The notes beneath the pieces are model-generated. The model searched no databases. It saw only the letters and a list, made by a program, of their open reading frames with translations, and was not told the DNA's origin. From the NCBI GenBank assembly GCA_905221615.1, contig CAJNDT010004868.1, positions 1 to 64,000 on the forward strand: 64,000 bases of DNA. The letters run 5' to 3'. Below are positions 11,617-41,796 of this stretch, in pieces; within the stretch, counting starts at the first letter, position 1, and every line of letters begins with the position of its first letter. The translations under genes and the position numbers were made by a program. The stretch comes from Symbiodinium sp. CCMP2592 (lineage: Eukaryota > Sar > Dinophyceae > Suessiales > Symbiodiniaceae).

Positions 11617-12510
11617 TCACACTCGATATGAAGTGCACTGACTGTGAGCCGTACTCAAGAAAAGCATAGTGGCAATGTACGCGACTTCCGCTATGCAAAA
11701 CACTGTCTGGCTCCTGCTCGAAGGCTGAGTTTCACAAACTTTCTCCCAACAGATGCCAACCAGCATGCAGAAGCCGGCAATGGTTGTCCCCAGGCCAGCT
11801 CCCACACTGACTAAATCAGCATCCGCAGCGACCACGCTCAGAGAACATGCTACATCCTCGCCGTTATGGCCGATGCCAGCACAGCCCTCACAAGTTCCGC
11901 CCCTCTTCTGGACGGAGTCTGCCTGCTTGACGAACCCGTTGACGCAAAACACGTCTAAGACGCAGAGAACAGAAGCATTGAAGATGAGACTTCTGCTGAA
12001 AGCAATCTCCGGGGTTGTATGTTTGATGAAGAGTCCATGTAAGTAGACATCACCAGCTTGTAAGCACCAGCAGGCCGTCACAGCGCCGAGCGCCCCAAAG
12101 TACTCGTTGAGGAAGCTGCCAACGCAAGGCTTCTCATTCCCAGTAGGCCCTGCCTTATCTTGGGACTGCGCCTTGACACTGTCGAACGTACCACTGGCCT
12201 CAACGTCCAAGGTGGGCGTCAGGATCTTGACAAAGATCTGCATGCCGCCTCGCATGTGCGGCGCCAAGTGAAGGGTCGATTCCTTCTGCAGGTTGTAATC
12301 CGAAAGAGTACGGCCGCACTCAAACTGCCTGCCAGCAAAGATCAGGTGCTGCTGGTCGGGCGGGATGCCTGCCTTAATTTGGGACTTCGCATTGACTTTG
12401 TCGAACGTGCCACTGGCCTCAACGTCCAACGTAATCGTCTTGCCTGTCAGGGTCTTGTCAAAGATCTGCATGCCGCCTCGCAAGCGCGGCACCAGGCGAA
12501 GGCGTGCCTT
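11617..12510 (-). pseudogene. divergent polyubiquitin remnant fused to a hydrophobic tail
   Basis: On the minus strand the frame first carries a degraded ubiquitin C-terminus ending LRGG. One complete 76-residue unit follows at 12471-12244, starting MQIF and containing [22 protein letters not shown] and QKESTLHL. A second unit from 12243 has lost about four residues after MQIFVKILT and breaks off around residue 35. Then comes a ~170-residue Cys-rich, partly hydrophobic extension with no ubiquitin similarity. Compared with canonical ubiquitin the full unit has K27N, I30S, R42H, K48R, D52C and an altered tail (HMRGG for RLRGG). Canonical ubiquitin is almost invariant, so this looks like a decayed copy. 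A divergent ubiquitin-like fusion remains possible. Confidence 0.75.
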
Positions 12511-13726
12511 TCATGGCACTGGGGCTACCGATAGCTCCGCGCTGCTGCGGCCATTCGAGCCCTTATGGGAATATTGGTATATTCCTTATTCTGGGTAATG
12601 CAGGAGTTATATCATGAACAGTGGGACTGCGCCCCTTCGTCCTCTAAGACGCGCGACCTGCCGGTCACGCCACCTTCACTGAAGAGGGTGAGACAGACTC
12701 ACCTGGCGGATGAGGCGCATGTAGTGTTAATGTGGTTTTGTAGCGTTCTCGAAATGCCTGTGCCTCCGGGGCCTTGATCGGGTTGGGACAATTGCAGATG
12801 GCTGGTGCTGGACAGGATTGTCAGCTGAATCGGCATACTGACGATAGTCATGGTGATGATGTCCAATCATGATTAGGATGGTGGTGATGATTATGATGAC
12901 GAGCTGATGGCGATGGTTGGGATAGGTTAGCATGTCCGACACTAGCACCACCGCCAGGACAACACTATTGCTCTGCTGTTGCTGCTGCTGCTTCTACGAG
13001 CAGTAGTAGTTGTCATTTCCGTCGCCATCGTCATGGCAGTGCTCCAATACGGCTACTGCTGCTGGGACTTGTCCTCCCACTGGAGATGTTACATCTGTAG
13101 TGCTGCCTATTACCGAATCATAGTTGTAAGCGTCGTCCTACTCCTACACCGTTGCTCCGACAATGCTCCAAACCCAACCACTCTAGACTCTAGACTGGGC
13201 TGGAGTGGGAGGGATGGGGCAGCTTGCCGGGGCTCCGGGGAGGAACGGGGGCTGATGGGCGGGGTGTATCGTTTCTTCTACGTCGGCGTCGTCTACACGC
13301 TTCTGTCTTTATGCGCTCAGTGCTGCACATACACACATTTCTAGAAATTTGTACCTACGCACATCCGCACACGTGTACATAGCACCTGGGCACAGGCACG
13401 AAGGGGATACATGCCTATCTCGCTGTCCTCTCCGTCTACATGTGCATGTAAGTATGCACAGGTATGCTGGCGTGTGAGTAAGCAAATACACAGATCTGCG
13501 CTTGCACAGGTGCGCACACCCGCACATCCATCCATCCATCCATCCATCCGTCCGTCCGTCCATGCATCCATCCGTCCGTGCGTCCGTCCATCCCTGCTTG
13601 CGTACGTGCGTGCGTGCTGCGTGCATGCATGCATGCATGCATGCATGCATAGATGTGTACATACATACGTGCATACATGCCCACATCTTCACATATTTAC
13701 ATACCTGCATACGTACTTATCAGCAT
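12511..13726. other. gene-poor stretch rich in simple repeats
   Basis: Contains ATG/GAT-rich sequence (12840-12920), GCT/GTT-rich sequence (12965-13060) and a tetranucleotide tract (CATC, CGTC, GCAT, CATA) at about 13523-13700. The open frames over it, with Cys/His/Met-rich translations on both strands, are by-products of the tetranucleotide repeats. No gene is supported. Confidence 0.75.
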
Positions 13727-14131
13727 ACTTGACACATCGTGTCGCAGGTCTGGTCAATCAGTGCATATTGCCGAAAGCTGTCAGGAGAAGTCAGAACATG
13801 CGATCTGAAGTACTGCATAGAACAAACACAAATCACTCATGTAAGACTGACCTATGCAGACCCTCACTCATGACTGTCGCATTAACAGACAAACTCTTGA
13901 ACAAGAACTGAGCAAGAAACTGACCAATGCAAGCCCTCACTCATGACTGTCGCATTCACAGATAAGCTCTCAAGCTGCCACAAGCGTGACCCATGAGCAG
14001 CTTTATGCAGGTACAGGTTCACACGTCTGTGAGCCCATCCAGTCAACATCCATAGCTTCATTGGCGTGGCTAGGATGCGACTGCCACGCCCCCTGCTGTC
14101 TAACTCACTCACGTCTCTTGGAAACAGAGTT
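13727..14131 (-). repeat. 405-bp direct repeat, left copy
   Basis: Starts ACTTGACACATCGTGTCGC and ends GGAAACAGAGTT. By eye it differs from the right copy (23299-23703) at about two positions. It contains two ~45-bp sub-repeats about 72 bp apart, around the shared word CTCACTCATGACTGTCGC (first near 13863, second near 13935). The base after the repeat on the inner side begins GGACACACACA. Relative to the minus-strand ORFs this is the 3' copy. Confidence 0.9.
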
Positions 14132-14232
14132 GGACACACACAAGCCCCGAAGGGCTCTGTGCAGTGTTGATGGTCGTTGCGCGCTGTTTTCCTCACGGAT
14201 TTTTGCATCGAAACGTCTTGTTCTTGGCAGAT

Positions 14233-14709
14233 CTAGGAGAGTGGGCTACGAAACTTCAGGAACCGCAGTCTGTACACTAAGTGTAATTCGACTTCGGCTT
14301 CTTCTGCATCAGAATCGAAGTACATGCAACACTGAGTTGCAGTTTGGTATGCAGCATTGGCCAATGACACGATACTCACTCGCAAACGCTTCTGTGCTAG
14401 GTCTACCACAGCGCGCATCCACCGTTTGGAAATGCTGCCCAACGTGGTGCAGGCCACGGCATTGATTTGAACAAAACGTATGGTGGTATGCAAAGACTGA
14501 AAACCCATGGTCAACTCAGCCGAGGAGGACAGCCGAAATTCTTGTATCCCACGATGCAAGAACGTGTACGCCACCATGGTTTCGGTTATGGGTTGTGCCT
14601 CTTCCGGGTCGTCATTTCGGTCGAGGCGGGTAATGAATGTGATTCTGGCTCTGATCGGCAACAGGTACGTCAAGAAGTTCTCGAGCACGTCAGAAGCGGC
14701 CCAATCCAT
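14233..14709 (-). CDS. element ORF F, unrecognised 158-residue protein
   Basis: The last ORF of the element, starting MDWAASDVLENFLTYLLP. It is mixed hydrophobic and basic with no motif I recognise. An Asp/Glu patch (DSDAEEAEVELH) lies near the C-terminus. An 11-bp repeat array starts roughly 80 bases ahead of its start, as for ORFs B and E. The size, strand and shared upstream array support it as a real element gene, but its function is unknown. Confidence 0.5.
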   Translation of the reverse strand: MDWAASDVLENFLTYLLPIRARITFITRLDRNDDPEEAQPITETMVAYTFLHRGIQEFRLSSSAELTMGFQSLHTTIRFVQINAVACTTLGSISKRWMRAVVDLAQKRLRVSIVSLANAAYQTATQCCMYFDSDAEEAEVELHLVYRLRFLKFRSPLS

Positions 14710-14790
14710 GTTGTTCAGAATCTACAAAGCTTCCAGACTGCTTGATACAAAACTCTATTACATGTCTGATGAAAGCAACTCACAAAACCG

Positions 14791-14905
14791 CAGAACTTGC
14801 ACATCCCTGACATGTCTCTCCGCACATTTCCTGGACAGCACTTGCACGTACCTCGCACGTCCCTTGCACATCACTTGCAATCCGCTTGCATATCCCTTGC
14901 TCATC
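14791..14905 (-). promoter_or_regulatory. 11-bp-period repeat array upstream of ORF F
   Basis: On the plus strand, units of the type CNCTTGCACAT follow each other at exactly 11 bases for about six copies (core 14849-14915), with looser copies before. The array lies between ORF E and ORF F, about 80-200 bases ahead of the start of ORF F. Phasing close to the DNA helical repeat suggests an array of binding sites on one face. The regulatory role is inference. Confidence 0.55.
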
Positions 14906-14957
14906 ATTTCTCTTGACACAAAGCAGCGGTGGACTCTTTTTAACCGTCACCGCTCTC

Positions 14958-15518
14958 TTACTTTCGGTTTAAGACGTACTGCACATGTTTCAAAGTAGAA
15001 GAAAAACGCTTCCTAGGGCCTTGCTTTTCTTTAACAATGCGTTCCCCATGTTGTCTCAGGAAATCGAGAATAAATTGGGCTCTGTTGTGGATGAAGAAGT
15101 CGTCACCAAGCACTCTCGTGCCTTCCATTCTGCGGCGAAATTGGGCTCTGGGTGCAGGACGAATCTTGATGCGCGCACCATCAGAACCTTCATCAATCAT
15201 ACGAAGCTTGCGTTTCCGCGGCGGGTCAATCTTCAACATGTTGGTGTGTTCTGCAGCGGACCGGTTCGACTTTGGAAACTGAACTGATCGACCAGGGGAC
15301 ATTGACGTAGACTGTCGGCCAAGGAACGATGACACATTCGAACTCTCATGATCAGGGACGAAATCAGCCGAATCAGGATCACTGACCAAGGTAACACCTG
15401 ATGCCAAAGCTACACGTCGATCGTGTTCTTGGTCCGACACTGCAAAGTCTGACGAAAAGTCGGACGAGTGCACGTCCGATACAGAGGCAGCATCGCTCTC
15501 AAAACTGGACACCGACAT
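14958..15518 (-). CDS. element ORF E, small acidic-then-basic protein
   Basis: A 186-residue ORF. The first ~75 residues are Ser/Asp-rich and acidic (SDVHSSDFSSDFAVSDQEHD). The second half is strongly basic, with PPRKRKLR, IKIRPAPRAQFRRR and KEKQGPRKR, followed by a helical C-terminus. This charge layout would suit a nucleic-acid-binding or nuclear-targeted protein. No known domain was recognised. An 11-bp array begins about 110 bases upstream of the start. Confidence 0.55.
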   Translation of the reverse strand: MSVSSFESDAASVSDVHSSDFSSDFAVSDQEHDRRVALASGVTLVSDPDSADFVPDHESSNVSSFLGRQSTSMSPGRSVQFPKSNRSAAEHTNMLKIDPPRKRKLRMIDEGSDGARIKIRPAPRAQFRRRMEGTRVLGDDFFIHNRAQFILDFLRQHGERIVKEKQGPRKRFSSTLKHVQYVLNRK

Positions 15519-15628
15519 AATTGGAAGCTACCTGTACGTTCCAAGTCTTTTTAGAACTGCAGAGTGCCTTGAGGACATGAGTCAAAACAGTGTCTGCAAA
15601 CGTTCACAACACATGCTACCGGCAGATC

Positions 15629-15714
15629 GCTTGCATAACCCTTGCACATCCCTTGCGCATCACTTGCACGTCTCTTGCACATCCCTTGCAATACACTTGC
15701 AGCAACACTGGCAC
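15629..15714 (-). promoter_or_regulatory. 11-bp-period repeat array upstream of ORF E
   Basis: About eight consecutive 11-base units of the type CCCTTGCACAT (plus strand), the cleanest of the three arrays. It lies in the gap between ORF D and ORF E, ending roughly 110 bases from the start of ORF E. Confidence 0.6.
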
Positions 15715-15743
15715 ACAGAGTCTTCTTTGCAACTGCTCACGCT

Positions 15744-16968
15744 TCACTCTGAGACTTCAATCACTGCTGGGAGTGTTGGGGGCAACTCTGAGGATTCTTG
15801 CTGCTGGAGAGAGTTAACACAATGGGTAGTCACAGATTGAATGGAATGCAAATCCGTCAGCAGGTTGCCCACCACTTCGTTGGTCTTCTGAAGTTTCTGA
15901 AACAGTTCTGTGATGGCAGACATGACTTCTGCCATCTGCGACTCAGTGTCCCTGATTTGTGTGGTGAGCACGTCGAGTTGGGACTGTTGGATCTTTTGGA
16001 CGGAGATAGCTTCTTCCCGAAAGTGACGAAATTCACCTCTGATTGTGATCAGCTCTTGTTGTGTGTAGGAAATCCAGCGCTGAAGAGGTGCCAACGGATC
16101 ACACGCTGAGTTGCTCGACATTGGTGCAATGGGGGGAAACTTGAGCAGGATGCTGCAAAACTGTTCTGATATGCATTGCAACATGAATGAAGTGATACTC
16201 ACAGCACTTGCATCGGATGCACGTTCTTTCCTCACTGCAAAACTCACAGGTGCCGCAGATACAAGCAAAGTTGCCGAACTTCTGTCACTCCGGACATACT
16301 TAGCTGAGATCAGACGATTGACTGCGTCGAAATCGGCGTGATTCACGCCTTCTGGTAGGCATGGGTTTAGATCTGATTGGAGTACCTGACGTAGCTGAAG
16401 ATGTAGGAGCAGCCGACGACGAAGCGGTACTCGACACCAAAGGAGGGTCAGGCGCACGAAGCACCGAGCTTCCTGGCAGTGCCGGGGGGGGAAGGACGGG
16501 TGCAAAGGCACTGGGTGGGGGGAAATTGGGAGGGGGAAGAGGAGGAGGGAGGGGAGGGGAGGGAGAGGGGGAGGGCCAGGGGGAGGCAGGGGAGGAGGTG
16601 TGGAGCTGGAAGACGGGTTGTCAATCTGCGATCGGCACACTCCTCATTGCTGGCGAGGGGGGTGGAGGGGCATAGGGATGGGATCTGCAATTGCCACTGG
16701 ACGAACGTGATCCTGAAGCTCCACTACTGCTGGGACGTTCCTCACGCAGATTTGCTTTATCCCTCTCATCCAAACGACGCAACTCTTGCTGCAGCATTCT
16801 TTCTGTACCTTCGCGCACAAATGCTGTCAATTGAAGTACAAGTGCTTGTCGAAGTTGAGGTCGTGATACAAAGTTGAGCAATCTCACACGCGCTGAATGA
16901 GTGAGCGTTCTCAAGAACTCATCGATGCTGGGATCCGAAGGTGGCACCGCCGACATGCTTGCTTTCAA
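15744..16968 (-). CDS. element ORF D, proline-rich then coiled-coil protein (frameshifted)
   Basis: Two overlapping minus-strand frames read as one protein: 16968-~16640 (start MKASMSAVPPSDPSID, then a helical region with RMLQQELRRLDERDKANL and a Ser/Pro-rich end) and ~16640-15744. The second opens with a polyproline stretch encoded by a C/T tract at about 16610-16480 and ends in a long heptad-rich helix of roughly 110 residues (from PLQRWISYTQQEL to LHSIQSVTTHC), a likely coiled coil. A frame change near 16640 is needed. It could be a real indel, an assembly error in the C/T tract, or a small intron. A coiled coil suggests self-assembly, as in structural ORF1-type proteins of retroelements; that role is inference. 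Confidence 0.5.
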
Positions 16969-17102
16969 GGATGTTCTCGTCTCTTAGCCAAAAACACTGC
17001 GACGTCGACAGCTGCAAGTCTCTCACAAATAAAGAACTCAAATGAAAACATGCTGCATGTGTGTCCGCTGTCAACTATCAACTGACTAACTCAGACCCTC
17101 TT

Positions 17103-19766
17103 TTACCGTTTCATCAAAGCTTCACACAGGTGATATGAGTATCCAAGATTCGCTAACCACCGCACAAAAATGTGGACAGCTACTTCAGCTTGACACGTTG
17201 GCCAAGTGTACTTGCGAATAAGGGAAATTCTCGACTTCGCGTCTGACACCAGCAATCTATCGCTACCTGCACTCATGGGATGTCGGACTTGCCAAAGGAA
17301 CTTTGGCTGGAGATAGTAAACAGTTCGGTTTCGGACATCGATGTCAAATCCCAAAAAATGACCATCACCGACCGCTTCAAGTACAATCGGAGAACCATAA
17401 AAGGTCTCCTGGCTGAAGACCTGAAAAGGCACTGTTTTATGCACTTCGGTGGGTGCAATCACCAGTCTGTTGTCCACATATCTTGCGAGAAAAGTGGAAG
17501 GGAAACTCGAGATCTGCGGGAACATTGCTGCCCAACCGAGCTCAGTCATCACCACCGGAAGGGAAGAGAGAACAGGACTGATTTGGTTACCAATTGACGT
17601 GCCATCAACTTGTTTCCACACTCTATTCAGCGCAACGAACAAGCCGCACTCAAAGCTGAGGCGAACAATGGTGACCAAGTCGTAAGGATCAATGGTCTTC
17701 CAATCGAAGTGCCGACGAATATTGGAAATCCTCCCATGGATGGAACGAAAATGTTTGCTCTTCTCATTGATGCAAACCGACAGTTTAACATCAGGGTGTC
17801 TGACAGTGAACATACGAACCAACATCTCCACTGCTTCCAGGATACGACTTTGGGGCACCGAGTTAAAGAACCCGACTAGATCGTCATTGAGCAGTTCAAG
17901 TTCAGTGTCCAACGAACAATGCTTGAACACTTGATGAATGTGGTGCCAAATCTGCGGAACACTGCGTGACAATGAACCAGGCCATACTGTGTTGACCATT
18001 TGGTCAATACAGATCGCTGCGGCTCTAATAGGGCCCAAGGCTGTATTCTTGTAGCTGATGATTGTTCGTCCTGACTTAAAGGACTTTTTGCGTTTGAGAA
18101 AGATCTGCCCCACAGGCAAATTGGCATCCAGCTTGAATCCCCACGGGTACTTGCGAACCAATGAAGGCGGAATATGCGCACACAGAAAGAGCTTTGCTGA
18201 CGACACGGACATTGGCATGGCTCTGAACACCTTGACATCTGACCATACACGTTGGCAGGATTGGAAGTAGAATCTAGGGCAAAAGACCATAAGATGCGTT
18301 GACTCGTGATCAGCGAGGTGAATCACCCATTCTGTACATACAATGTCCTTCAGCTGCAGCGCATGACCTTCCTGAAATTTCGGGCATAGGCACAAATGAC
18401 GAAGATGGAAGTGCCACTCATAATGAATGAACCGCTGCCACATGGGGAGAGTATGCAATGGAGTAAAATGTGTCTTGCACCAAACCTTGTACGCGGAGGT
18501 CGCCTGCTTCATGTACTTGACTTTTGATGGAAAGACAAGGGATTTAGAGTTGGCCTGAGCAAGTTCTCTGAGAACCGGTTGGCGAAATGATAGCGTCTCG
18601 AGGCCAGTAGCCACATGTCCATCCACCAAATCCACATTTGGGTGCTGCTGCTGAAACTGTTGGCATCTGCATTGAAGTTGATCAACTGTTGTCTCAGCAA
18701 GCTTCTTCTCCCACTCAAAGTGATTGTGAAGAATAGAGCCCAGTGATTGGGGAGCAGACTCTCTAGGCGTCCTGGAGGGAAGGTGAAACGGAATGCAAAT
18801 GCCTTTGAACTGCTGAATGGTATGAGACAAAAACGAGGAGACATGAGAAGCAAAAGAGGGATGAGACAGAAACGGTAAAGTGACGGACTTGTTGTGCCTG
18901 GGTACGGAGCAGTTACGAAACCGTAACGCAGATTTGAGCAACTGTACCACCCTAGATCTGAAAGGTTGCTCCATGATCTTGGCCATCCTGAACATCGCGT
19001 ACAACTCTAGCACTGACACTTTGGCAGACCTGACAATTTTTGCAGCAGAGAAAGATGCCGAGGTCAGCGACGCCAAGTCGTACAGAAGTGACCATGCTTG
19101 GCTTTTGTCCATCAAACATCGAGTCGGAGTACTTGTTGAAGCAGCACGTCTTCGAACTTTTGCCCAAAGTCTGGAAAACAGTGAAACATTCTTAACATTC
19201 TTAAGAGAAGGACGTGGCCTGAGTCTCTTGAATCCCAATGCTGACTTTATAAAGAAGCGATCAATGAACGGTGAATTGAATCTGGGCTGCCATCGATCAA
19301 TGAGTACATGCTCTTGTACCCAGGCTTGTTTGTAGTCATCATGAACTGAAAGACAAAGTGTAGAGAAGTCGAAGTAACTGCCAAGCGAAGCCCAAATGCG
19401 AATAGCAGGTTCAACTTGAACATATTGCTCACGGAGAACTTGCTTGAGTTTGGACTGACGGTTGAATTCACGCTTGGAAATAGTGATTGAGGTGCTTCCC
19501 ACATACATCCATCGGTCTCGTTGCTTGAATGAAGAACGGGTACTCCAAGACACGGGAGCTTTCAAATAAACTGCAAAAGGACGCTGAAACCGTGTGAATG
19601 TATACTCAGACGGTGTAACTCCAGCTTTCTGCAATTTTTCAAGCAGCCGTTGCTCTGGCGAAGTACCCCTGGAGTAATAGAACAGTAGAATCAGATGACA
19701 AAAACCTTGCAACCAAATGGCCATCACTTTGTCCACATGCGGAATAAATTGAAGCACAAACGACAT
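17103..19766 (-). CDS. reverse transcriptase with N-terminal GIY-YIG endonuclease
   Basis: 887 residues in one intact frame. Residues ~65-170 fit a GIY-YIG nuclease: AVY at 65-67, YVG at 88-90, a following Arg near 99-103, Glu152 in QEHVLIDRW and Asn164 in PRFNSPF. Residues ~540-850 fit a reverse transcriptase: motif A NDDLVGFFNSVP with Asp628/629, motif B QVDGTSIGNQISP (719-731), motif C Y763-V-D765-N766, then FLGFDIDV (804-811). The second Asp of the usual YxDD is Asn. The order nuclease then RT matches permuted Penelope-like elements; most Penelope-like elements carry the nuclease at the C-terminus. The protein would nick the target and copy element RNA there. The start is the first Met of the frame; ORF B ends 85 bases upstream. 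Confidence 0.85.
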   Translation of the reverse strand: MSFVLQFIPHVDKVMAIWLQGFCHLILLFYYSRGTSPEQRLLEKLQKAGVTPSEYTFTRFQRPFAVYLKAPVSWSTRSSFKQRDRWMYVGSTSITISKREFNRQSKLKQVLREQYVQVEPAIRIWASLGSYFDFSTLCLSVHDDYKQAWVQEHVLIDRWQPRFNSPFIDRFFIKSALGFKRLRPRPSLKNVKNVSLFSRLWAKVRRRAASTSTPTRCLMDKSQAWSLLYDLASLTSASFSAAKIVRSAKVSVLELYAMFRMAKIMEQPFRSRVVQLLKSALRFRNCSVPRHNKSVTLPFLSHPSFASHVSSFLSHTIQQFKGICIPFHLPSRTPRESAPQSLGSILHNHFEWEKKLAETTVDQLQCRCQQFQQQHPNVDLVDGHVATGLETLSFRQPVLRELAQANSKSLVFPSKVKYMKQATSAYKVWCKTHFTPLHTLPMWQRFIHYEWHFHLRHLCLCPKFQEGHALQLKDIVCTEWVIHLADHESTHLMVFCPRFYFQSCQRVWSDVKVFRAMPMSVSSAKLFLCAHIPPSLVRKYPWGFKLDANLPVGQIFLKRKKSFKSGRTIISYKNTALGPIRAAAICIDQMVNTVWPGSLSRSVPQIWHHIHQVFKHCSLDTELELLNDDLVGFFNSVPQSRILEAVEMLVRMFTVRHPDVKLSVCINEKSKHFRSIHGRISNIRRHFDWKTIDPYDLVTIVRLSFECGLFVALNRVWKQVDGTSIGNQISPVLSSLPVVMTELGWAAMFPQISSFPSTFLARYVDNRLVIAPTEVHKTVPFQVFSQETFYGSPIVLEAVGDGHFLGFDIDVRNRTVYYLQPKFLWQVRHPMSAGSDRLLVSDAKSRISLIRKYTWPTCQAEVAVHIFVRWLANLGYSYHLCEALMKR

Positions 19767-19850
19767 GAACTTGCCAATCTCAGTAATGCGAACGTGAGCT
19801 GACCGAATCTCCTTTGCGGAGAATTCATTGGAAGCAAGGCTGTGTGCAAT

Positions 19851-21011
19851 TCAGACAACTTGAAATGCTGCCGCTGCGATGCACGTAGAAAGACTCTTGA
19901 TACCCATCCTAGATGCAAACGTCGCCGAGATACCGAATTTGACTGCAAGTTCTTGCAGTTTGGCTTTTTCCTTGCCTCCATAGTTGATCTGCACAAGCTT
20001 GGAGACAGAAACAATGTGCTCTTGAAATTCTGCAAAGCGCTTGCCTAGGGGGCGTTTGAAACTCTGGATCCACTTGTCAATGTCACCCTCTCCTGATCCT
20101 TTTAACCGTGCTTTGTGATCATTCAAGGCTTCTGCAGGAACACTGTCGATCTTGTTCTTGAAGTCAGTCTCCCAAGTCTTCGGTGGCGTCCCGGATTGTG
20201 GACCAGGAGCACTGGATTGTGAAGCAACCGGGAGCTGTGCTTTGGAAGTGGGTTTCGTAGGGGTAACGGGAAGTCCTGCGGCTTGCAACTGTTCACGGCG
20301 GCGGTTAAGCTCTTCCGAAATTTGAAGGAACTTCTGGGATTGGTGGGCACCGGCATGTTGTCAAACATCAGCTGAACGATCTTGTCAATCAACGGCTGAA
20401 ACAGGATGGCGGAATCTGTGGTCTTGCTGGGAACCATTGTGGACGGATTGGCGGTCTGAAAAAGTTGCGTAGCAACTGCATCGATGTCAACCTTGCGATC
20501 TCGAAGGCTTTTGGTCACTTGCGACACGAACACCGCTTCGGCAACTGTGGCAACTGGCACAACACTGAAGAACTTGCCATGGCTTAATGCTCTCAGACGC
20601 CAATCTGAAACTCCATGGAACAGGAATTCCTGAACAGGAATGCAAAGTGGATCTTTCCCTGCGATTCCTTTCTTTCGCGACCACGGGGTGGCTTCAATGC
20701 ACTTACGAAATGACAAACCATGAAGTGCAGTTGAGTCATAATGATCACGATCTGACGTCCATCCATTCGGTAACGCAGGTACAAGAACAGGACCTTGATG
20801 AAGTGGCATGGGAGTAGACGGACGGCGAAGATGAAGGTCCCGAAGCAAGTGGAGGTGGAGGTAGGGGAGGCGGCTGACTAGCAGGAGCAGACTTGGGGAA
20901 GTTGGGATCATTCCAACTGCCCGAGCTGTACGGCTGAAAGCGATGCTGGCCCCACGGTTGTTGGGATCTCCCGTATCCTGTGCTGGAGTTCCACTGTCCA
21001 TTCCATGCCAT
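19851..21011 (-). CDS. element ORF B, Gly/Pro-rich N-terminus, two frame changes
   Basis: Read from 21011, the protein begins MAWNGQWNSSTGYGRSQQPW, passes a proline-rich stretch, and then continues in another frame from about 20.8 kb (a helical region with VTKSLRDRKVDIDAVATQLF). At about 20.33 kb it returns to the first frame, ending with a helical and basic part (TWETDFKNKIDSVPAEALND, then GEGDIDKWIQSFKRPLGKRF) and a stop at 19851. Both shifts return to the original frame, so ~386 residues are recoverable. The continuous 353-residue frame starting at 21184 overlaps an 11-bp array, so its N-terminus is unlikely. Composition suggests a nucleic-acid-binding protein. No domain is recognised. Confidence 0.5.
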
Positions 21012-21117
21012 GGTTTCTGAACTAGAGACAAAGCTAAGTCCAAGGGAACGCTAAAGACACTTCGAATCAAAGAGCTCCATAGAAGAACAAACATGCTCAA
21101 CGAAATCTCAAACTGCA

Positions 21118-21243
21118 GCACTTGCGTCAATCTTGCACGACCCTTGCACAGCACTTGCTCAACTCTTGCACATCTGCCGCTCACCCTTGCACTGCTTCTG
21201 AGGCTTCACTTGCACAACACTTGCATATCCCTTGCTGGCACAC
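21118..21243 (-). promoter_or_regulatory. 11-bp-period repeat array upstream of ORF B
   Basis: About eleven units of the CNCTTGCACAT type at 11-base spacing, two of them degenerate in the middle. The array begins about 107 bases ahead of the ORF B start at 21011 and lies between ORF A and ORF B. It shares its unit with the arrays at 14791-14905 and 15629-15714. Confidence 0.6.
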
Positions 21244-21344
21244 CGCTCGATCCGAACTGGCATGTTTTTATACATGTGTGCGCAGATCGCAGTTGGCAAT
21301 GGAAGACGCTTGAGAACGTGGTTGGTCAAGGCAACTTACGGCAC

Positions 21345-22973
21345 TCAGACCTTCCAAAAAACAAGAAGTGCTTCCGGGATGAAACATGAGGAGCGAAAGA
21401 CCCATCTGCCATCTTTGGCACGGGCAACATCACGAATGTAACTGCAGGAATGGTCACCCTCAACTCCTCCCATGGGGATCCTTGAATGGGGGGGCGTGAG
21501 GGACCCTTGGCGATTAAAAGCAGACCCAAAGATGCACAACGGACGCTCACTCAGAATGCCACCGTACTTGGACGCAGCCTCTTGTGCTTGTTCTGCATCT
21601 GAAGTGTGAGCCCTAGCATAGAAGGAGATCGGTGGACACCACATGCTGTCACGAGCATCCCAATACGAGGGTCGAATTGTTCCCTCAAGAAGGATAGACG
21701 CGGCCCCGGCCACCGTTGTGTTGTGTGCAGCAGGCATGCGAGCAATCCCTGCTGCCGAGGTCTGCGACTTGATCATGGTCCTCTCAAAGTGGTTGAAGTG
21801 GATGCTCAAACACTTGCACGAACTCGACAAGGAACGAAGCTCAACAGATCGAATGTTTGCAGCTTGATCGGCTGCGGCAATTGCTTGAGAAACATACTTC
21901 AGTGCTGTCGAGTTGACATGCTGAGAAGGAAGTCCTAACAGGCTCATCAGATAGTCCGCAGTGCTTTGCATCAAGGAGCTGGGAACTTGCAACTCAAGAT
22001 TGGCCTGTATCTTTCTCGAAATCTCACATGCCGATTTCATACGGCCAGGGCTGGAACTGATCAAGTGGCGTAGGGTAGTAAACATGGGGTATAATGCGAC
22101 CCAATTGAAGTTGGCTGAATACACTTGAATCAGCTTCGCTTCTTCATCACGCACTTCCAGCCCACGAAGTTCAGGAATCACGAAGAAGTTTGAATCTTGT
22201 TCCCACTCTACTTCCACATGCCCTCTGAGAAGAGATCGATTCCCAAGATGCTCATAAGATTCTTGCAAGGGTTTAACCCGAAAGACGTAAGTCTGGTCCG
22301 CACTGAGCTGCCACCCTACACGATCAGCATAAGTACCAGGAATGTTATCGCAAATCGCACGAAGTCGGATGCTGTTAGGATCTGCACCAAGAGAAACTCC
22401 GCTTCCATGGACTTGCCGAAGTCGTTTTGAGGGCTGAGAAGAATCATCCGTCTGGACTGTGATGTCTGACTGCTGGCTCTGACCAGAAGTTGCTGCATGA
22501 CTTTGTTGGGAAACAACAGTCTGCTGTATGTCGAGCAAATTGTTGAGACCGGCATACACATCTCTGTGACCTCGGACATGAGTCAAGTTTGCCGACATAA
22601 TTGCTGAATATTCAGCAAAATCGGCCACCGAACGAAACGACAGACGGAAACCTGTGCCATCTGCATGAAGAGTGATAGCTGGTGGAACATCTTGCTGTGG
22701 AACAGGTCGATCACTTACAGCACGTACGGCTGCAGAGGTAGGAGCTACATCTGCTGTTCCCAATCCAACATTGCATGCAGAAGAGATCGGCAAAGATGAC
22801 GAAGATGGCGTCGGGCAAACTGCAGGAGTGGGGGAGGGAAAGCGGGAGGGGGAAGGGGAGGGGGGGGTGGAATCCACTTCGCTGTGGTACCACGAGAGGA
22901 GGGCTGGGCAGCAGTGGGGAGGGGAGGGGGGGGGCAAAGGAGGGAGGGGAGAGGAGATGTCCCGGTACTGCAT
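21345..22973 (-). CDS. element ORF A, 542-residue protein of unknown function
   Basis: The first ORF of the element. It opens with a proline/serine-rich stretch (C/T tract at about 22960-22810), so the true start is uncertain; a Met at 22993 in another frame (MDTSDKGCSTGT) could be used if the tract holds an indel. The middle part (residues ~95-400) is globular-looking. The C-terminus has an HNTTVAGAASILLEGTIRPS segment followed by aromatic-rich sequence, and a later GGILSERPLCIFGSAF. A His-Thr followed by Ala-x-x-I-L-x-x-G is reminiscent of ADP-ribosyl/2'-phosphotransferase-like folds, but this is weak. It could equally be a structural protein. Confidence 0.55.
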   Translation of the reverse strand: MQYRDISSPLPPLPPPSPPHCCPALLSWYHSEVDSTPPSPSPSRFPSPTPAVCPTPSSSSLPISSACNVGLGTADVAPTSAAVRAVSDRPVPQQDVPPAITLHADGTGFRLSFRSVADFAEYSAIMSANLTHVRGHRDVYAGLNNLLDIQQTVVSQQSHAATSGQSQQSDITVQTDDSSQPSKRLRQVHGSGVSLGADPNSIRLRAICDNIPGTYADRVGWQLSADQTYVFRVKPLQESYEHLGNRSLLRGHVEVEWEQDSNFFVIPELRGLEVRDEEAKLIQVYSANFNWVALYPMFTTLRHLISSSPGRMKSACEISRKIQANLELQVPSSLMQSTADYLMSLLGLPSQHVNSTALKYVSQAIAAADQAANIRSVELRSLSSSCKCLSIHFNHFERTMIKSQTSAAGIARMPAAHNTTVAGAASILLEGTIRPSYWDARDSMWCPPISFYARAHTSDAEQAQEAASKYGGILSERPLCIFGSAFNRQGSLTPPHSRIPMGGVEGDHSCSYIRDVARAKDGRWVFRSSCFIPEALLVFWKV

Positions 22974-23298
22974 CCTTTGTCTGAAGTATCCATGGCAAAT
23001 TGATCAGCAACTACCGAAAAGTACGGCTCATGTACTCAACTTGCAGCCGAAGACCTGCGACAAGTCACCGGTATAATCAGTTCGGGGAATTCAACCAGAT
23101 CATAACAAAGTCAATGAGAGAATCAGCATTCAGTTTCGGAAAAGGCATTTGGGAAAAACTCACTGAAAGAGTCAGCATGCAAGCATGGATATGAAGTCAA
23201 AGGAAGTCATCCAATGCTTATTCAATCAGTCGGGAAAGTCAGCGCCAGAGCTACCTCTGGGAGACACGGCGCCCATAGGGAATGCCGTTGTGAAGCAC
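22974..23298. other. element leader region, no gene
   Basis: About 325 bases between the right direct repeat and ORF A. No ORF of note and no 11-bp array. If transcription starts in the direct repeat this would be the 5' leader on the minus strand. Confidence 0.4.
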
Positions 23299-23703
23299 AC
23301 TTGACACATCGTGTCGCAGGTCTGGTCAATCAGTGCATATTGCCGAAAGCTGTCAGGAGAAGTCAGAACATGCGATCTGAAGTACTGCATAGAACAAACA
23401 CAAATCACTCATGTAAGACTGACCTATGCAGACCCTCACTCATGACTGTCGCATTAACAGACAAACTCTTGAACAAGAACTGAGTAAGAAACTGACCAAT
23501 GCAAGCCCTCACTCATGACTGTCGCATTCACAGATAAGCTCTCAAGCTGCCACAAGCGTGACCCATGAGCAGCTTTATGCAGGTACAGGTTCACACGTCT
23601 GTGAGCCCATCCAGTCAACATCCATAGCTTCATTGGCGTGGCTAGGATGCGACTGCCACGCCCCCTGCTGCCTAACTCACTCACGTCTCTTGGAAACAGA
23701 GTT
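23299..23703 (-). repeat. 405-bp direct repeat, right copy
   Basis: Nearly identical to 13727-14131 (offset 9572). Visible differences are C/T changes near 23484 and 23671. Relative to the minus-strand ORFs this is the 5' copy and would hold the promoter of a Penelope-type pseudo-LTR. It is followed directly by a (CA)n tract. Confidence 0.9.
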
Positions 23704-23884
<181 letters not shown>

Positions 23885-23924
23885 GCATGTACGAACGTGT
23901 GCATGTATTTATGTACCCATGTAT

Positions 23925-24560
23925 GTATGTATGTTTGCTCTATCTATCTAGCTAGCTATCTGTCAATCAATCTGTCTGTTTATCTATCATCTGTCTTTCT
24001 TTGTCTGCTTATTTGCACACACACACACACACAAACACACACAAACATAAACAAAGACACAGACACAGACACGCACACACACACACACACACAAACTCAC
24101 ACACACACAGAGACAGACACAGACACACACAGACACACACAGACACACACAGACACACACACACACACAGACACACACAGACACACACACAGACACACAC
24201 ACAGACACACACAGAGACACACACAGAGACACACACACAGACACACACAGACACAAACCGACACACACAGACACACACCGACACACACAGACACACACCG
24301 ACACACACCGAGACACACACACACACAGACACACACAGACACACACACAGACACACACAGGACACACACAGACACACAGAGACACACACACACACACAGA
24401 CACAAAGAGACACACACACAGACACACAGAGACACACAGAGACACACAGAGACACACAGAGACACACAGAGACACACAGAGACACACAGACACACAGACA
24501 CACAGACACACGGACACACGGACACACGGACACACAGACACACACCACACGCGGAGACAC
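23925..24560. repeat. compound CACA/CAGA microsatellite
   Basis: A CTAT/CTGT patch at about 23938-24000 is followed by over 500 bases of CACACAGA-type units with CCGA and GAGA variants. Long frames over it on both strands are repeat artefacts. Confidence 0.95.
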
Positions 24561-25359
24561 AAACACACGCATGTGCATGCATGCATGTTGTTATGGATGC
24601 AAACTTGCATGCATGCACGCATGTACTCACACAGACACGCACAGACGATTGTACATACATGTGTACGCATTTTCTTCACTATCGCTGCCTGCTTCATTTT
24701 TTGTTGTGCTGATACTGAGTGCTGATGATTGCAAAGATCACTGCGAGTTTTGTTAATTCCATGGCTGATGGCTGACGTGATTATGACAATGATGATGAGG
24801 CTTTCATCATGATGATGATTTGTTTGTTGTTATGGTTGTTTCAATTTCAATTCCTATCATGTTCTTGGATGGCTACAGTGCCGTTCATTCCTAAAACTCC
24901 TTCTGCTACGACTTTCTGTCTGGTCATGTTCGTGCTTCTGTGGTTGTTGCTGTTGTGCGGTTCCGATGCAATGCTGCCGTGCATGTCAATTCAATTCCAG
25001 AGTGGAGTACACTGTGCTGATCCAGGAGGAGCCTTGCTTGGAGAAGGCCACGGGAGGGGCTTGATCTCTGGGGGGCCTCAAAGCAGGTTTTAGGCTGGGC
25101 TTGGCATTGGGCTCTCGAAGACTCTACGGACGTTCAGCAGTTTCTCCGGGGCGGTTGCCGTGGTTTTTCCGTAGGTCGATACCAGGTCTTCAGCGGTAGG
25201 TCGCACAGACACGCGACTGCGAGTGTGCAACTCCGGAGTCCTTCGTTGCGGGTTGGAACAAGGCCTTGACAGTTGAGCGAATTCTCAGACCTTGTCCCGT
25301 TCCTGCAACCCTGTGTTGTCTGCATGGCATCACGCTGTTGTACTTGCTACTCTCGCCTG
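24561..25359. other. gene-poor stretch
   Basis: Mixed sequence with GATGAT triplets near 24790-24825. The 25012-25060 segment resembles 1066-1110. No convincing exon was found. Confidence 0.45.
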
Positions 25360-36691: not shown

Positions 36692-39600
36692 ATGGACGCC
36701 GACGCTAAAGGCGCCGTCCCATGGGTCTACTACATCCCGGTTGTGAATGTTCTGTACGATGCAAACGCCGTTCCTCCTAGCATGCAGCAGATTGATCAGA
36801 TTTTGGAGACGTTTTCGACACTGAATGGATTGCTGTTGAGTGTTTGTATTCCAACGGTCGTGCTGTTCTCGCCAACGGACTCTGCTGTAGCGAGGGCTCG
36901 GAATTGGAATGGCAGCTACGATCGATACCGGTTCTTTAGCCTGTCTGCAATGTTTTGCATCACGGCTGCATCGGTGAGCACGAGTCTAACGTATCTGTTC
37001 ACTCGAGCAACTGACTTCGAGGGTGCAGCTGGAGTTAGCCGAGCTTACATCTCTTGGTGGCGGTACACTCGCTGGAGCTTCTTGTTCCTGATCTTGGGAA
37101 CCCTCATAGGCAGTGCATGTCTTAGTCTGGCTATCCAGTATGCATTTGTCCTACAACATGCTCAAGGGCAAGCAGAGGCCGACCTGTTAAGCCGCTTCAT
37201 GGGCAACTGGAGTTTTTACGGGTTGCTGGGCATGGGCTTTGTTGTCCCTCTGGCCGTGGTCTCCCTGGCAACTTTGGCCAAGCAGACTGCTATACATACA
37301 GTGGGACGCATTACCTCGACGAGCAATCGTCAGTTTCGATCTGCTCCCAAGAGTTGGAAAACAAGCCTTCTGCACAACTGCCCTGTCATGAACATTTTCT
37401 ATGACGTTCTTTTCGTTCAAGTGCCATCTTCAGGCAAAATCAACAGTGTCATGGCCATGCTGATCCTGTTCAACAGTCTGCTGTTGGCAGTCGTCATTCC
37501 CATGTTGCAGCTGTTCGATGATGAGAAAGCAGCCAATGCCCGGCTGCTAAATTGGGACGGTGAGTATGACGAGTTCAAGAGGCAAGTGACCCGTGGCTAC
37601 GTGTGCATCGCCTCCGCCATGTTTCAAGTCGTGTGTATGCACCTTGCAGCAGTCGCAGGGACCTTCGATTCCAACACAGCTGGAGTGGGTTCCGCGGTTG
37701 CTGCATGGTGGAAGGTTGCACGCTGGAATCTTGTTGTCACCGGCTCTTGCACATGCGCAGGAAGTATGTTCCTGTACCGAGCCGCCCACTTAGCTTTCAA
37801 GTTGCAGCACATGACGACAGCCGACGAGGGACAAGAGATTGGCAGATATCAGGACAATAGCCTCTTTGTGGTAGTGCTCGGTTTGGGAGTCGCCTTGCCT
37901 TTGCTTTTGCTATCATTGGCGCACAGCCGGCGCCATCGGGCTATGAACGACAATGTGCCTGCAAAGGAAGAGAGGCAGGTGCTCCATCGTGCTCACTACC
38001 TTCCAGTGACTTGGGCGCCAGCAATATCCTTCTGCCCTTTGCGTCCTCATTAAGAATGGAACACTATGCTGAGCTCTTGGAACATGGCACCCTCCCAAAG
38101 CCCTTACGGAACCCCGAGTAAAGGGATACCCTAGGTCCTACACCGCAAACTCCAGGCCGGAAAGGGCTGGCCTGGCCTTATGATTTAGGGGACTAGTATA
38201 TATAGTATATATATATATATAGTATACATAGTGAATATAGTATATATAGTATATATAGTATGTATATATATATATATATATATATAGTATATATAGTAAA
38301 TATAGTATATATAGTATATATATATATAGTATATATATATATATAGTATATATATAGTATATATATAGTATATATATATATATATATATATATATGGTAC
38401 CCCCCCCCCCAGGACCTACCTCCAAACCCGTCTGTCTACATATGATACCACACTTCATTACCCATGCACACACATACACACACACACACACACACGCACA
38501 CACATGCAACATGGAATAGGGTATACGAAGAGTCGTGTATACGAACATGACTATACCAGAGGCCTGGCTGCATTAAAACCCGCATTAAAAAAATAAATTT
38601 TAATGCAGCCCGGCCCGTGGAACCAAGAACCAAGAACCAAGATTCCCAGGAGTCTTGAATCCTGAATCTTGGTTCCACGGGCACTGGCCGGGCTGCATTA
38701 AAATCTGCATTAAAAAATTAAATTTTAATGCAGCCCGGCCCGTGGAACCAAGAACCAAGAACCAAGATTCCCAAGAGTCTTGAATCCTGAATCTTGGTTC
38801 CAGGGGCACCGGCCGGGCTGCATTAAAATCTGCATTAAAAAATTAAAATTTAATGCACACTGGCCCGTGGAACCAAGAACCAAGAACCAAGATGCCCAGG
38901 AGTCTTGATTCTTGGATCTTGGTTCCGCGGGCACTGGTCGGGCTGCATTAAATCTGCATTAAAAAATTAAATTGTAATGCACCCAGGCGCGTGGAACCAA
39001 GATTCAGGATTCAAGACTCCTGGGAATCTTGGTTCTTGGTTCTTGGTTCCACGGGCCGGGCTGCATTAAAATTTAATTTTTTAATGCAAATTTTAATGCA
39101 ACCCGGCCGGTTCCCGTGGAACCAAGATTCAGGATTCGAGACTCCTGGGCATCTTGGTTCTTGGTTCTTGGTTCCACGGGCCGGGCTGCATTAAAATTTA
39201 ATTTTTTTATGCAAATTTTAATGCAGCCCGGCCGGTGCCCGTGGAACCAAGATTCAGGATTCAAGACTCCTGGGCATCTTGGTTCTTGGTTCTTGGTTCC
39301 ACGGGCCGGGCTGCATTAAAATTTAATTTTTTAATGCGCGTTTTAATGCAGCCAGGTCGCTGGAAAGTATATAAATATTCACGAAACATATCGGCTTGCC
39401 CTTTTATGTGCCACATGGCCGGTCCTGCAGTGAAGATTAAGGAGCGGATTGCTGTGCTTGACAGCTTGATCGCATGGCAACAAATGTGTGATGAAGCAAG
39501 CTGCAGCTAATCAAAATCAAATGATCTTGTACTTCCAGCTCCAGTCCTGTCCTTGTGAGCATAAATAAAATAAATACTGTACAGATAGGTTTAGATATGG

Positions 39601-41796
39601 AACATCAGTCGGAGCCGAAGATTTGCGAATGTCCAGCTGAGTTATAGCTTACTGAGTAACGGGTTCCCATGGTGGACATCAGGAGCCTACTTGTAAACAA
39701 ATATCCTTCCAAGTCCACTATAGAATACCCCCTTTATCCTTTCCAGGATTTCATAGAAAATGCTCAGGTCGTACCATTTAGAGTTTATGACGTATATACT
39801 CTGTATAACATACCTTCTGGAACACCCGGTATCTCATGAAACACCTTATAGAAATCTGTCCTATATATACACCCTATAGCAAACTATTCACACGTTACAG
39901 TTTGGGATACCCTTTAGATACCGTATAGACTGCCCCATAGAATACCTTGTCCAGGATTTCACAGAAAATACTCAGGTCGTACCATATAGAGTTTATGAAG
40001 TATATACTTTGTATAATTTACCTTATGGAATACCCTGTATCTCATGAAACACCTTATAGAAATCTGTCCTATATATACACCCTGTAGCAAACTATTCACA
40101 CGTTACAGTTTGGGATACCCTATAGATACATTATAGACTGCCCCATAGAATACTTTGTCCAGGATTTCAGAAAAATACTCAGGTCGTACCATGTAGAGTT
40201 TATGAAGTATATATTTTGTATAATATACCTTATGGAATACCCTGCATCTCATGAAACACCTTATAGAAACCTGTCCTATATATACACCCTATAGAATACT
40301 TTTCATACGTTACAGTTTGGGATACCCTATAGATACCTTTAGACTGCCCCATAGAATACCTTGTTTTTCTCCTATATACCCTCCTATATACCCTATATGA
40401 GCCTTTTAAAATACCATGTGGAATACTTTACAGAATGTTTTATAAACGCCCTATGCATGATACTCCCCTTATACCTTATGCATGCCCTTGAGAACCCCTT
40501 TGGGATACCCGGCAAAAACCGTATAGATCGGGATTTAATTAAAATAAATCAGAAGGAGCCCAAGCTTCTTGCAGCTTATTGAGCAACGGACATTTATGCC
40601 TGTAGAATACCTTACAGAATACCCTTTTTACAAACCGTAAGGAAATTCATGTAGAATACGGTAATACCTTATATAATGTTCCTATATTCCATATACACCT
40701 TGTACACCCAAGATCTGAGAGTTCCCCAGCTGAATGTGGTTTATTTAGCAATGGGTTCATATCAAGGAATTGCGGAATATCGGATCTTGAAATTCCTTGA
40801 AAATCGATGCTTATCTAGCAAAGGATACATACAGAGAACAGAGCTCTTCTGAAACACATGCTGCACATACCCTATAAATGCCTTTTAAACTACCTTTTCC
40901 ACCGATTTACCCGACACACATCTTATATAATACCATCCGTAATGCCCCGTTGAATACTTTGAAGAAGAACGCCTCTATTTGATACATCCTGTGTACCTTT
41001 TGTATGCCATATAGAATACTTGTACAGTACCATTTAGATTACCTTTTAGAATCCATTATGGAAAACCCTAACAGTACCTTATAGATACGGGTTTTAAATA
41101 TGGAAAGCCAGCCGGAGCCCAATATCTGAGAATTTCTAGTTGAATTGCAGCTTTTGGGTAAGGGATTCCTATGAAGAAATCAGGAACCAGAAAAACTATC
41201 CTTACAACCTCCTTATAAAAATACACTCTCTACGCACCTTAATGAATTTCATAAAACCTACACTATAGAATACCTTCCTACATATAGGCCGCAGAATGCC
41301 TTTTGTACAATACGTTATGGAGTACCCTCTAGAATACCTTATAGAAAGCCCTATAGAATACCATCCTTACAGAAGACCGCCTATGGAATATATCTGTTGT
41401 ATACCCCAAATATACCTCATAGAATATCCTCCAGAATACCTTTTAACATACCGTTTACAATAGTTTAGAATATACCCTATAGATCACCGTTCAAAAAGGG
41501 AACATCAGGAGGAGCGCGCCGTTAAATAGCGTAGCATACGGCGCCCAGTAGACAATACTTCATGGTATTGTTTTGGTTCGAACGGTGTGGTGTCGTCGTA
41601 GACAGTGAAGACTACGCAGTATACTACAGTTTAGTCCGGAGTGGAGTCGTAAAGTCGTCTACACAGTACAAGAAGAGGCTTCGAGGTAGGTCCTGGGGGG
41701 GGGGGGGGGGGGGGGTAGCATATATATAGTATATATATAGTATATATATAGTATATATATATATATAGTATATATATATATATATAGTATATACAG

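Follow-up and report, generated by a model that had tools for sequence, protein, structure and literature searches.

A probable Penelope-like element of a Symbiodinium genome, with several genes and a GIY-YIG-like domain ahead of its reverse transcriptase

The locus and its coding segments

The stretch of DNA analysed here (the window, 64,000 nucleotides from Symbiodinium sp. CCMP2592) corresponds to contig C4866 of the organism's own genome, G000 (1,098,105,373 bases in 5383 contigs), and holds two 405-bp direct repeats that lie 9572 bp apart, the space between them being occupied by open reading frames (ORFs) that all run on the minus strand. The element formed by these parts is real, multi-copy and recently mobile, and it is very probably a complete multi-gene Penelope-like element (PLE), whose reverse transcriptase (RT) resembles telomerase and is preceded, at the N-terminus, by a GIY-YIG-like endonuclease. 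Read from stop to stop, the ORFs of the window measure 552, 360, 915, 299, 189 and 162 amino acids (aa), with extra pieces of 169 and 120 aa. The other copies in G000, whose counts are lower bounds throughout, hold seven coding segments of about 560–565, 388, 913 (885 from the first ATG), 219, 124–125, 186 and 158 aa, arranged as repeat, ORF1, ORF2a, ORF2b, ORF3, ORF4, ORF5, ORF6, repeat. ORF lengths were compared in 10 copies plus the window, one of the copies (C80) being without its 5' part.

The ratio of nonsynonymous to synonymous substitution rates (dN/dS) was computed against copy C471 for the window and for C35, C641, C5101 and C54. It amounts to 0.15–0.26 for ORF1, 0.12–0.20 for ORF2a, 0.076–0.081 for ORF2b, 0.22–0.27 for ORF3 (0.48 in the window), 0.23–0.30 for ORF4 (measured on a 146-aa frame containing it), 0.25–0.32 for ORF5 (C54 gives no value) and 0.12–0.28 for ORF6. 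Since these values are low, all seven segments are proteins kept by selection, each of them being under purifying selection between subfamilies. Nearly identical copies are uninformative in this respect (C5312 and C213 differ by few changes and give values up to 1.02), and in the distant copy C4101 the synonymous rate (dS) is saturated in most ORFs. None of the accessory ORFs matched a Pfam family at the curated cut-off.

The endonuclease-like domain and reverse transcriptase of ORF2b

ORF2b (17103..19850, minus strand) is an open frame of 912–915 aa, 885–887 aa from the first ATG in 6 of the 11 copies, in which a GIY-YIG-like endonuclease, a CxC linker and a telomerase-like RT follow one another. 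The best 50 of 1221 first-look candidates in G000 were scored, and 47 of these contain no stop; the protein collection yielded nine homologues, none with a precomputed Pfam domain. The putative endonuclease domain (19236..19598, minus strand; residues 85–205) carries AVY, YVGST, R, E and N motifs, of which the Y, YxGST, R, E and N residues are invariant in two alignments. Its structure model shows the order strand-strand-helix-helix-strand-helix, which we take to be the topology of GIY-YIG domains. In the linker, C394 and C396 are invariant in all 10 aligned sequences. The RT domain (17211..18263, minus strand) displays NDDLVGFF (motif A), GTSIGNQISP (motif B) and RYVDN (motif C) at residues 656–794, so that the endonuclease-like domain, called by its motifs, stands N-terminal to the RT. 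The distance from the start of motif A to the start of motif B, the interval that holds the insertion-in-fingers domain in Chlamys and Naiad, is 93–95 residues in all six proteins that have both, in a region that is poorly modelled.

Profile searches and structure models were both used to classify this protein. Pfam RVT_1 matched two of five sequences when the RT alone was scanned, the better one at E 4.7e-4, and one of 10 in the full-length scan, and the RT-only profile found no TERT in the PDB, its four matches being chance-level acetyltransferases. The ORF2b structure model has a TERT-like fold with telomerases as its top matches, and in this comparison the RT is nearer to telomerase RT than to those of long interspersed nuclear elements, group II or long terminal repeat (LTR) elements. 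The telomerase matches (the VIA rows) span residues 367–912 of the model, and the N-terminal domain is therefore barely tested by them. The structure-model matches and the architecture together place ORF2b, putatively, among the PLEs, probably with those that have an N-terminal endonuclease.

ORF1, ORF2a and the conserved stop

ORF1 (21345..22993, minus strand) has a proline-rich N-terminus, in whose proline tract the window copy bears a frame offset; it is intact, at 560–565 aa, in five of the 10 copies with the 5' part present. G000 holds 94 matches to it, 85 of them without a stop, and the protein collection nine homologues. In two of these (P0017 and P0018) a C-terminal stretch matches the N-terminus of RT ORFs, at 41.6 bits (E 1e-9) for P0017 against P0003, where the best of 200 shuffles of the P0017 end reached 23.1 bits, and at 34.7 bits for P0018. 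This joining of ORF1 to the N-terminus of an RT ORF gives separate evidence that ORF1 stands beside the RT. No known domain was recognised in ORF1: its profile had no match in the PDB, and Pfam gave three weak single-member matches. The impression of an ADP-ribosyltransferase-like C-terminus was dropped, the structure prediction having a predicted local distance difference test (pLDDT) score of 31.8.

ORF2a (19851..21011, minus strand) suffers frame offsets in the window and is 388 aa long in eight of the 11 copies. It is separated from ORF2b by an in-frame TGA (19851..19853, minus strand), which was found by junction comparison in all 13 sequences holding the junction among the 19 compared, the next 28 codons being in frame; all 50 scored ORF2b matches start at the first codon past it. 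In the relatives P0004, P0005 and P0008, ORF2a and ORF2b form a single protein. An arrangement suggested by P0005, in which ORF2a, the 169-aa piece and ORF2b would be one ORF broken in the window, was rejected in view of this stop, kept in 13 of 13. Readthrough of the stop codon may join ORF2a to ORF2b, and we regard this as a fair guess from sequence comparison: the substitution test is mixed, being suggestive for the window against C471 and C54 (proportions of synonymous and nonsynonymous differences of 0.20–0.25 and 0.05–0.06, respectively) and giving no such signal for C471 against C54 or C5101.

ORF3 to ORF6

ORF3 (16300..16956, minus strand) is 219 aa long in six of the 11 copies and is interrupted in the window by a stop after 111 aa, and ORF4 (15744..16121, minus strand; 124–125 aa) lies in a different frame from it and by eye looks like a coiled coil. 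Substitutions across the two favour the third positions of one frame as far as about 660 nt, have no clear phase from there to about 840 nt and then follow the next frame (the first 60 nt of ORF3 and two windows in a proline tract being exceptions), and this shift of phase marks ORF3 and ORF4 as separate. A weak Pfam match of the 299-aa frame to HAP1_N (E 0.0016), below the cut-off, was not used.

ORF5 (14958..15518, minus strand) has an acidic N-terminus and a basic C-terminal part, is 186 aa long in seven of the 11 copies and has five homologues in the protein collection; in G000 it has 139 matches, a count that takes in fragments and distant rows. ORFs of about 206 aa, probably belonging to other element families, contain its C-terminal part with an identity of roughly 50–68%, and its residues 1–41 recur (88–90%) in many frames of about 91 aa.

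ORF6 (14233..14709, minus strand) was defined by copy comparison and is 158 aa long in 10 of the 11 copies; 140 of its 150 matches in G000 are without a stop. A codon-usage model did not distinguish it from noncoding sequence, whereas the copy comparison (dN/dS) did so. A search of the protein collection with a piece of ORF6 found no homologue outside the own genome, and a weak Pfam match to Helicase_PWI (E 0.01), below the cut-off, was not used.

Direct repeats, outer ends and target

The 5' direct repeat (23299..23703, minus strand) and the 3' direct repeat (13727..14131, minus strand) were described in an earlier note on this DNA as two 405-bp copies with about two differences, and this was borne out, the two being identical at 403 of 405 positions with mismatches only at 13913 and 14099. 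In the repeat search of G000, for which 40 of 224 candidates were scored, 50 matches were found among those listed, including seven further pairs on other contigs with a spacing of 9.6–10.4 kb; the pair in the window is not a chance one. Among 11 aligned pairs there are one to three mismatches, three of these pairs also having 7–24 gap columns; C4079 (97.1%) and C4101 have more diverged repeats. The majority of the compared insertions look recent, in line with the recent activity proposed in the earlier note. Within the repeat there is an internal 52-nt duplication at a spacing of 73 nt (13722–14142, and likewise 23294–23714).

Junctions were compared in 19 sequences, in which outer ends could be placed in 14 cases at the 5' side and 19 at the 3' side. 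The 5' flank of the window copy, on the element strand, is a (TG)n microsatellite (23704..23875), and all 14 placed 5' ends have (TG)4 or more within 24 nt before the end, the TG run terminating in CC in 13 of them (the exception is the window). At the 3' side, (TG)3 or more lies within 24 nt after the end in 16 of 19 cases and four or more units in 13 of 19; the exceptions are C5105 and C4079 (GTGTGG) and the window, with a degenerate ATGT-type microsatellite. Random 24-mers drawn from the window outside the element passed the four-unit criterion in 11 and the three-unit criterion in 185 of 20000 draws. The sequences beyond the TG runs differ between the copies whose flanks were read. No placed outer junction showed the CA orientation; TG is always on the sense strand of the element, and the orientation is therefore fixed relative to the microsatellite. 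Insertion into (TG)n with a fixed orientation is shown by these junctions.

These ends also bear on two other explanations. An element with true LTRs, be it an LTR retrotransposon or an endogenous virus, that carries a GIY-YIG domain by chance would account for complete direct repeats at both ends, for several ORFs and for a stop between a possibly gag-like ORF2a and ORF2b, but the RT matches telomerases and not retroviral RTs. Moreover, Pfam scans of the window ORFs and of the relatives gave no integrase, protease or RNase H (the same scans missed the RT of the window), the repeats are not of the TG...CA form, the target is an oriented microsatellite and one repeat can be common to two tandem units (see below), so that we consider this origin very unlikely. 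A non-mobile segmental duplication or satellite-like tandem gene array, to which the presence of head-to-tail copies would lend some colour, is highly improbable: matches lie on dozens of contigs, internally deleted derivatives exist, and the placed ends (14 at the 5' side, 19 at the 3' side) are the same ends of the element each time, mostly in TG, with differing flanks beyond.

Intergenic arrays, hairpin and leader

The noncoding parts of the element, which were absent from the earlier note, comprise three arrays built of 11-bp units, a hairpin and a nearly invariant leader, all on the minus strand. The array before ORF2a (21121..21235) has nine GCAAG units at spacings of 11, except one of 23 and one of 21; the array before ORF5 (15630..15700) has seven units with every spacing equal to 11; and the array before ORF6 (14841..14900) has five units and one nearby (spacing 45), its other spacings being 11 or multiples of it. 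The longest in-phase run was eight, against a best of three in 300 shuffles of 3-nt blocks, and the arrays occupy matching positions in the other complete copies. From 152 units the consensus is GCAAG[G/T]GATGT, the first five letters of which are set by the search itself. The arrays are probably promoters or binding sites for single ORFs.

The hairpin (14127..14170) stands directly before the inner 3' repeat, and its 3' arm continues into GUGUGUG. A like stem was found at 22 of 23 sites chosen by the 3'-arm sequence (the exception is the first site of C719), and C4101 gave no hairpin site by that sequence. In the window the fold has a z-score of -2.63, with two of 200 shuffles equally good. 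The leader after the 5' repeat (23213..23298) is a proposed RT binding and start region; its roughly 85 nt are nearly invariant across subfamilies in those 18 of 21 sequences that contain the 19-nt leader motif used to choose them, C4101 included, and its single-sequence fold is unexceptional (z -0.79, 41 of 200 shuffles equally good). Rfam detected no hammerhead over 13000–24700, its 12 matches being to microRNA families, lying in simple repeats and none reaching the gathering score; hits to the hammerhead core motif lay on the opposite strand only and were not accepted as ribozymes. The DinoSL pattern is absent from the window.

Copies, subfamilies and tandem units

The comparative set consisted of two batches of 11 regions each. 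The complete gene order is present in seven regions of the first batch (C35, C213, C1215, C471, C5312, C5105 and C890); of the others, C80 was covered in part, C546 and C54 gave no match to ORF5, and C719 proved to be a 4.7-kb deletion derivative. In the second batch C641 and C5101 are complete, C113 and C4079 are derivatives that lack the RT, and the remaining regions are partial, distant or covered in part. Around the best 50 ORF2b matches, ORF1 lies 0.5–3 kb upstream in 39, ORF6 1.5–6 kb downstream in 44 and both in 37, and 73 of the 94 ORF1 matches have ORF6 4–12 kb downstream, 63 of these at 7.0–7.8 kb (the adjacency counts took in 135 of the 150 ORF6 rows). The matches spread over dozens of contigs. 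The earlier note had considered that the ORFs might occur separately elsewhere, which is not the rule given these neighbourhoods, and that the repeats might flank unrelated sequence in other copies, which was not seen in the nine complete regions.

A distant family, C4101, retains the order ORF1, ORF2b, ORF3, ORF4, ORF6 without an ORF2a or ORF5 match, with aa identities of 43% for ORF1, 57–72% for ORF2b (partly inverted) and 37% for ORF6; its 243-bp repeats are 95.5% alike and have (TG)n on both outer sides. This copy is relevant to a further explanation, namely that a compact PLE once took up several host genes as one block, enclosed by its pseudo-LTRs, and then amplified the cargo. Host DNA captured between pseudo-LTRs is reported for the rotifer elements Pen1 and Pen3a (PMC3846280), and the accessory ORFs, without a Pfam match at the curated cut-off, are none of them tied to transposition by that means. 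Such a capture is nevertheless unlikely: the dN/dS of the ORFs stays low even where subfamilies have a dS as high as 0.74, the distant copy keeps both the gene order (at 37–72% aa identity) and TG-embedded repeats, ORF1 is joined to the RT-ORF N-terminus in P0017 and P0018, and ORF1 and ORF6 accompany most of the best ORF2b matches.

Copies stand singly or head-to-tail. Tandem arrangements were found at four places, where ORF6 is followed by another ORF1 within 2.5 kb. At the C979 junction one repeat is common to both units, the inner boundaries lying directly after GTGTGTGTCC and between CAAGT and GTGCTTCACAACGG, and this is the pseudo-LTR arrangement of Penelope (PMC11167929). At the C942 junction there are two consecutive repeats with (TG)n between them, which looks like insertion into TG beside an earlier copy.

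Several variants were observed besides the complete copies. The internally deleted derivatives C4079, C113 and C719 keep their repeats, C113 and C4079 also keeping ORF5 and ORF6, and have lost the RT, so they must be mobilised in trans, if they are mobile at all. The distant families C683 and C278 have ORF2b-, ORF1- and ORF6-like genes in another order (C683 also an ORF2a-like one); downstream of their RT there is a weak match to ORF1, and they contain additional ORFs of no known kind. In the subfamily of C54 and C4701 there are extra 11-bp arrays, ORF2b and ORF3 lie about 1.5–1.7 kb apart, and ORF5 has no match at its usual position. No related locus was found in viral contigs or prokaryote genomes.

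Relation to known Penelope-like elements

PLEs are the closest mobile relatives of telomerase. Chlamys and Naiad, which Craig et al. reportedly presented in 2021 as PLEs with an N-terminal endonuclease, have a GIY-YIG-like domain before the RT, a CxC linker, a telomerase-like RT, pseudo-LTRs, a microsatellite bias and one ORF. The present element shares with them the putative N-terminal GIY-YIG-like domain, the linker, the type of RT, the pseudo-LTRs and the microsatellite bias, and no hammerhead was found in it. Unlike them, it spreads seven coding segments over 10 kb, and it has a specific and oriented (TG)n target, 11-bp intergenic arrays and YVDN in motif C.

The Terminons (Athena) of bdelloid rotifers are endonuclease-deficient telomeric elements of up to 40 kb with hammerheads, whose RNA repeats pair with telomeric overhangs next to the hammerhead (PMC6431247). 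The likeness extends to a Penelope-like RT, many accessory ORFs, some coiled coils and RNA-end repeats able to pair with the target; unlike Terminons, the present element has an endonuclease-like domain (by motif), lies in interstitial TG tracts inside contigs and has complete repeats at both ends. Endonuclease-bearing PLEs are described there as single-ORF elements of 4–6 kb, and the typical PLE as having one or two ORFs (PMC6431247). The present element, with seven coding segments and about 10 kb, departs from this compact form, which is a typical and not a defining trait and is broken by Terminons too. In Anolis PAc, reverse transcription starts inside the RNA, not far from where the next unit begins, and the site lacks homology to the target; the element has a C-terminal endonuclease, a single ORF, a hammerhead and an AT-rich target (PMC11167929). 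The present element has in common with this Penelope/Poseidon type its tandem units, its pseudo-LTRs and, as proposed, an RT start near the beginning of the following unit; unlike Anolis PAc, its target and its proposed start site both hold GTGTG. Among the literature matches listed, no title or abstract opening names a multi-gene endonuclease-bearing PLE or a dinoflagellate PLE, which is no proof of absence since subscription papers were mostly uncovered; the main text of PMC11453091 contains the word Penelope zero times.

The classification of the element as a multi-gene PLE with its own accessory proteins, proposed in the earlier note, is upheld by seven segments under selection and by the conservation of order and ends. 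Some caveats apply. The copy in the window is partly broken: the reading frame shifts within ORF1 and within ORF2a, and ORF3 ends early at a stop. The Pfam GIY-YIG family was matched by one of seven sequences, weakly (E 0.098), and the PDB gave no match. The element occurs in tandem as well, its repeats being pseudo-LTRs. Finally, of the six same-strand ORFs that had been proposed, the common strand stands and the number does not, copy comparison giving seven coding segments.

Proposed mechanism and significance

A cycle consistent with these features can be outlined. Tandem copies would be transcribed, with the RNA starting near (UG)nUCC, directly past the hairpin, which may replace the absent hammerhead. 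The endonuclease would nick a (TG)n.(CA)n tract on its CA strand, and the freed (CA)n 3' end could then pair with the GUGUG where the repeat ends, beside the conserved leader, and prime reverse transcription; it is the positions of the outer 3' ends that would place the RT start at the GUGUG between repeat and leader. The cDNA end complementary to UGUGUCC might join the far side through TG microhomology. ORF1 and ORF3 to ORF6 would serve as accessory proteins of the element, probably forming a ribonucleoprotein or facing the host. For the proposed priming, Terminons are the nearest working analogy.

A bolder interpretation, which is conceivable and at present doubtful, is that the element represents a distinct order of PLEs with a virus-like gene content. 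It would have an endonuclease, structural and accessory proteins of its own, a gag-pol-like pair of ORF2a and ORF2b joined by readthrough, and genes with promoters of their own, each preceded by an 11-bp array in helical phase; UG repeats at both ends of its RNA would pair with nicked TG/CA microsatellites and thereby guide homing. If this were true, UG/TG homing would be the interstitial counterpart of telomere attachment by a relative of telomerase. A multi-gene endonuclease-bearing form with a simple, oriented TG target would show that the lineage built complex genomes more than once. For direct tests of target-primed reverse transcription in Penelope, the element would offer a defined target, RNA start site and protein set.

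Other features of the window

Adjoining the element, an open frame on the minus strand (11617–12510) resembles, by eye, degenerate polyubiquitin repeats. Farther along the window, a 377-nt inverted repeat (38556–39363, 93%) is made of direct repeats of about 125 nt, and tandem repeats of 208 nt lie near it at 39735–40357.

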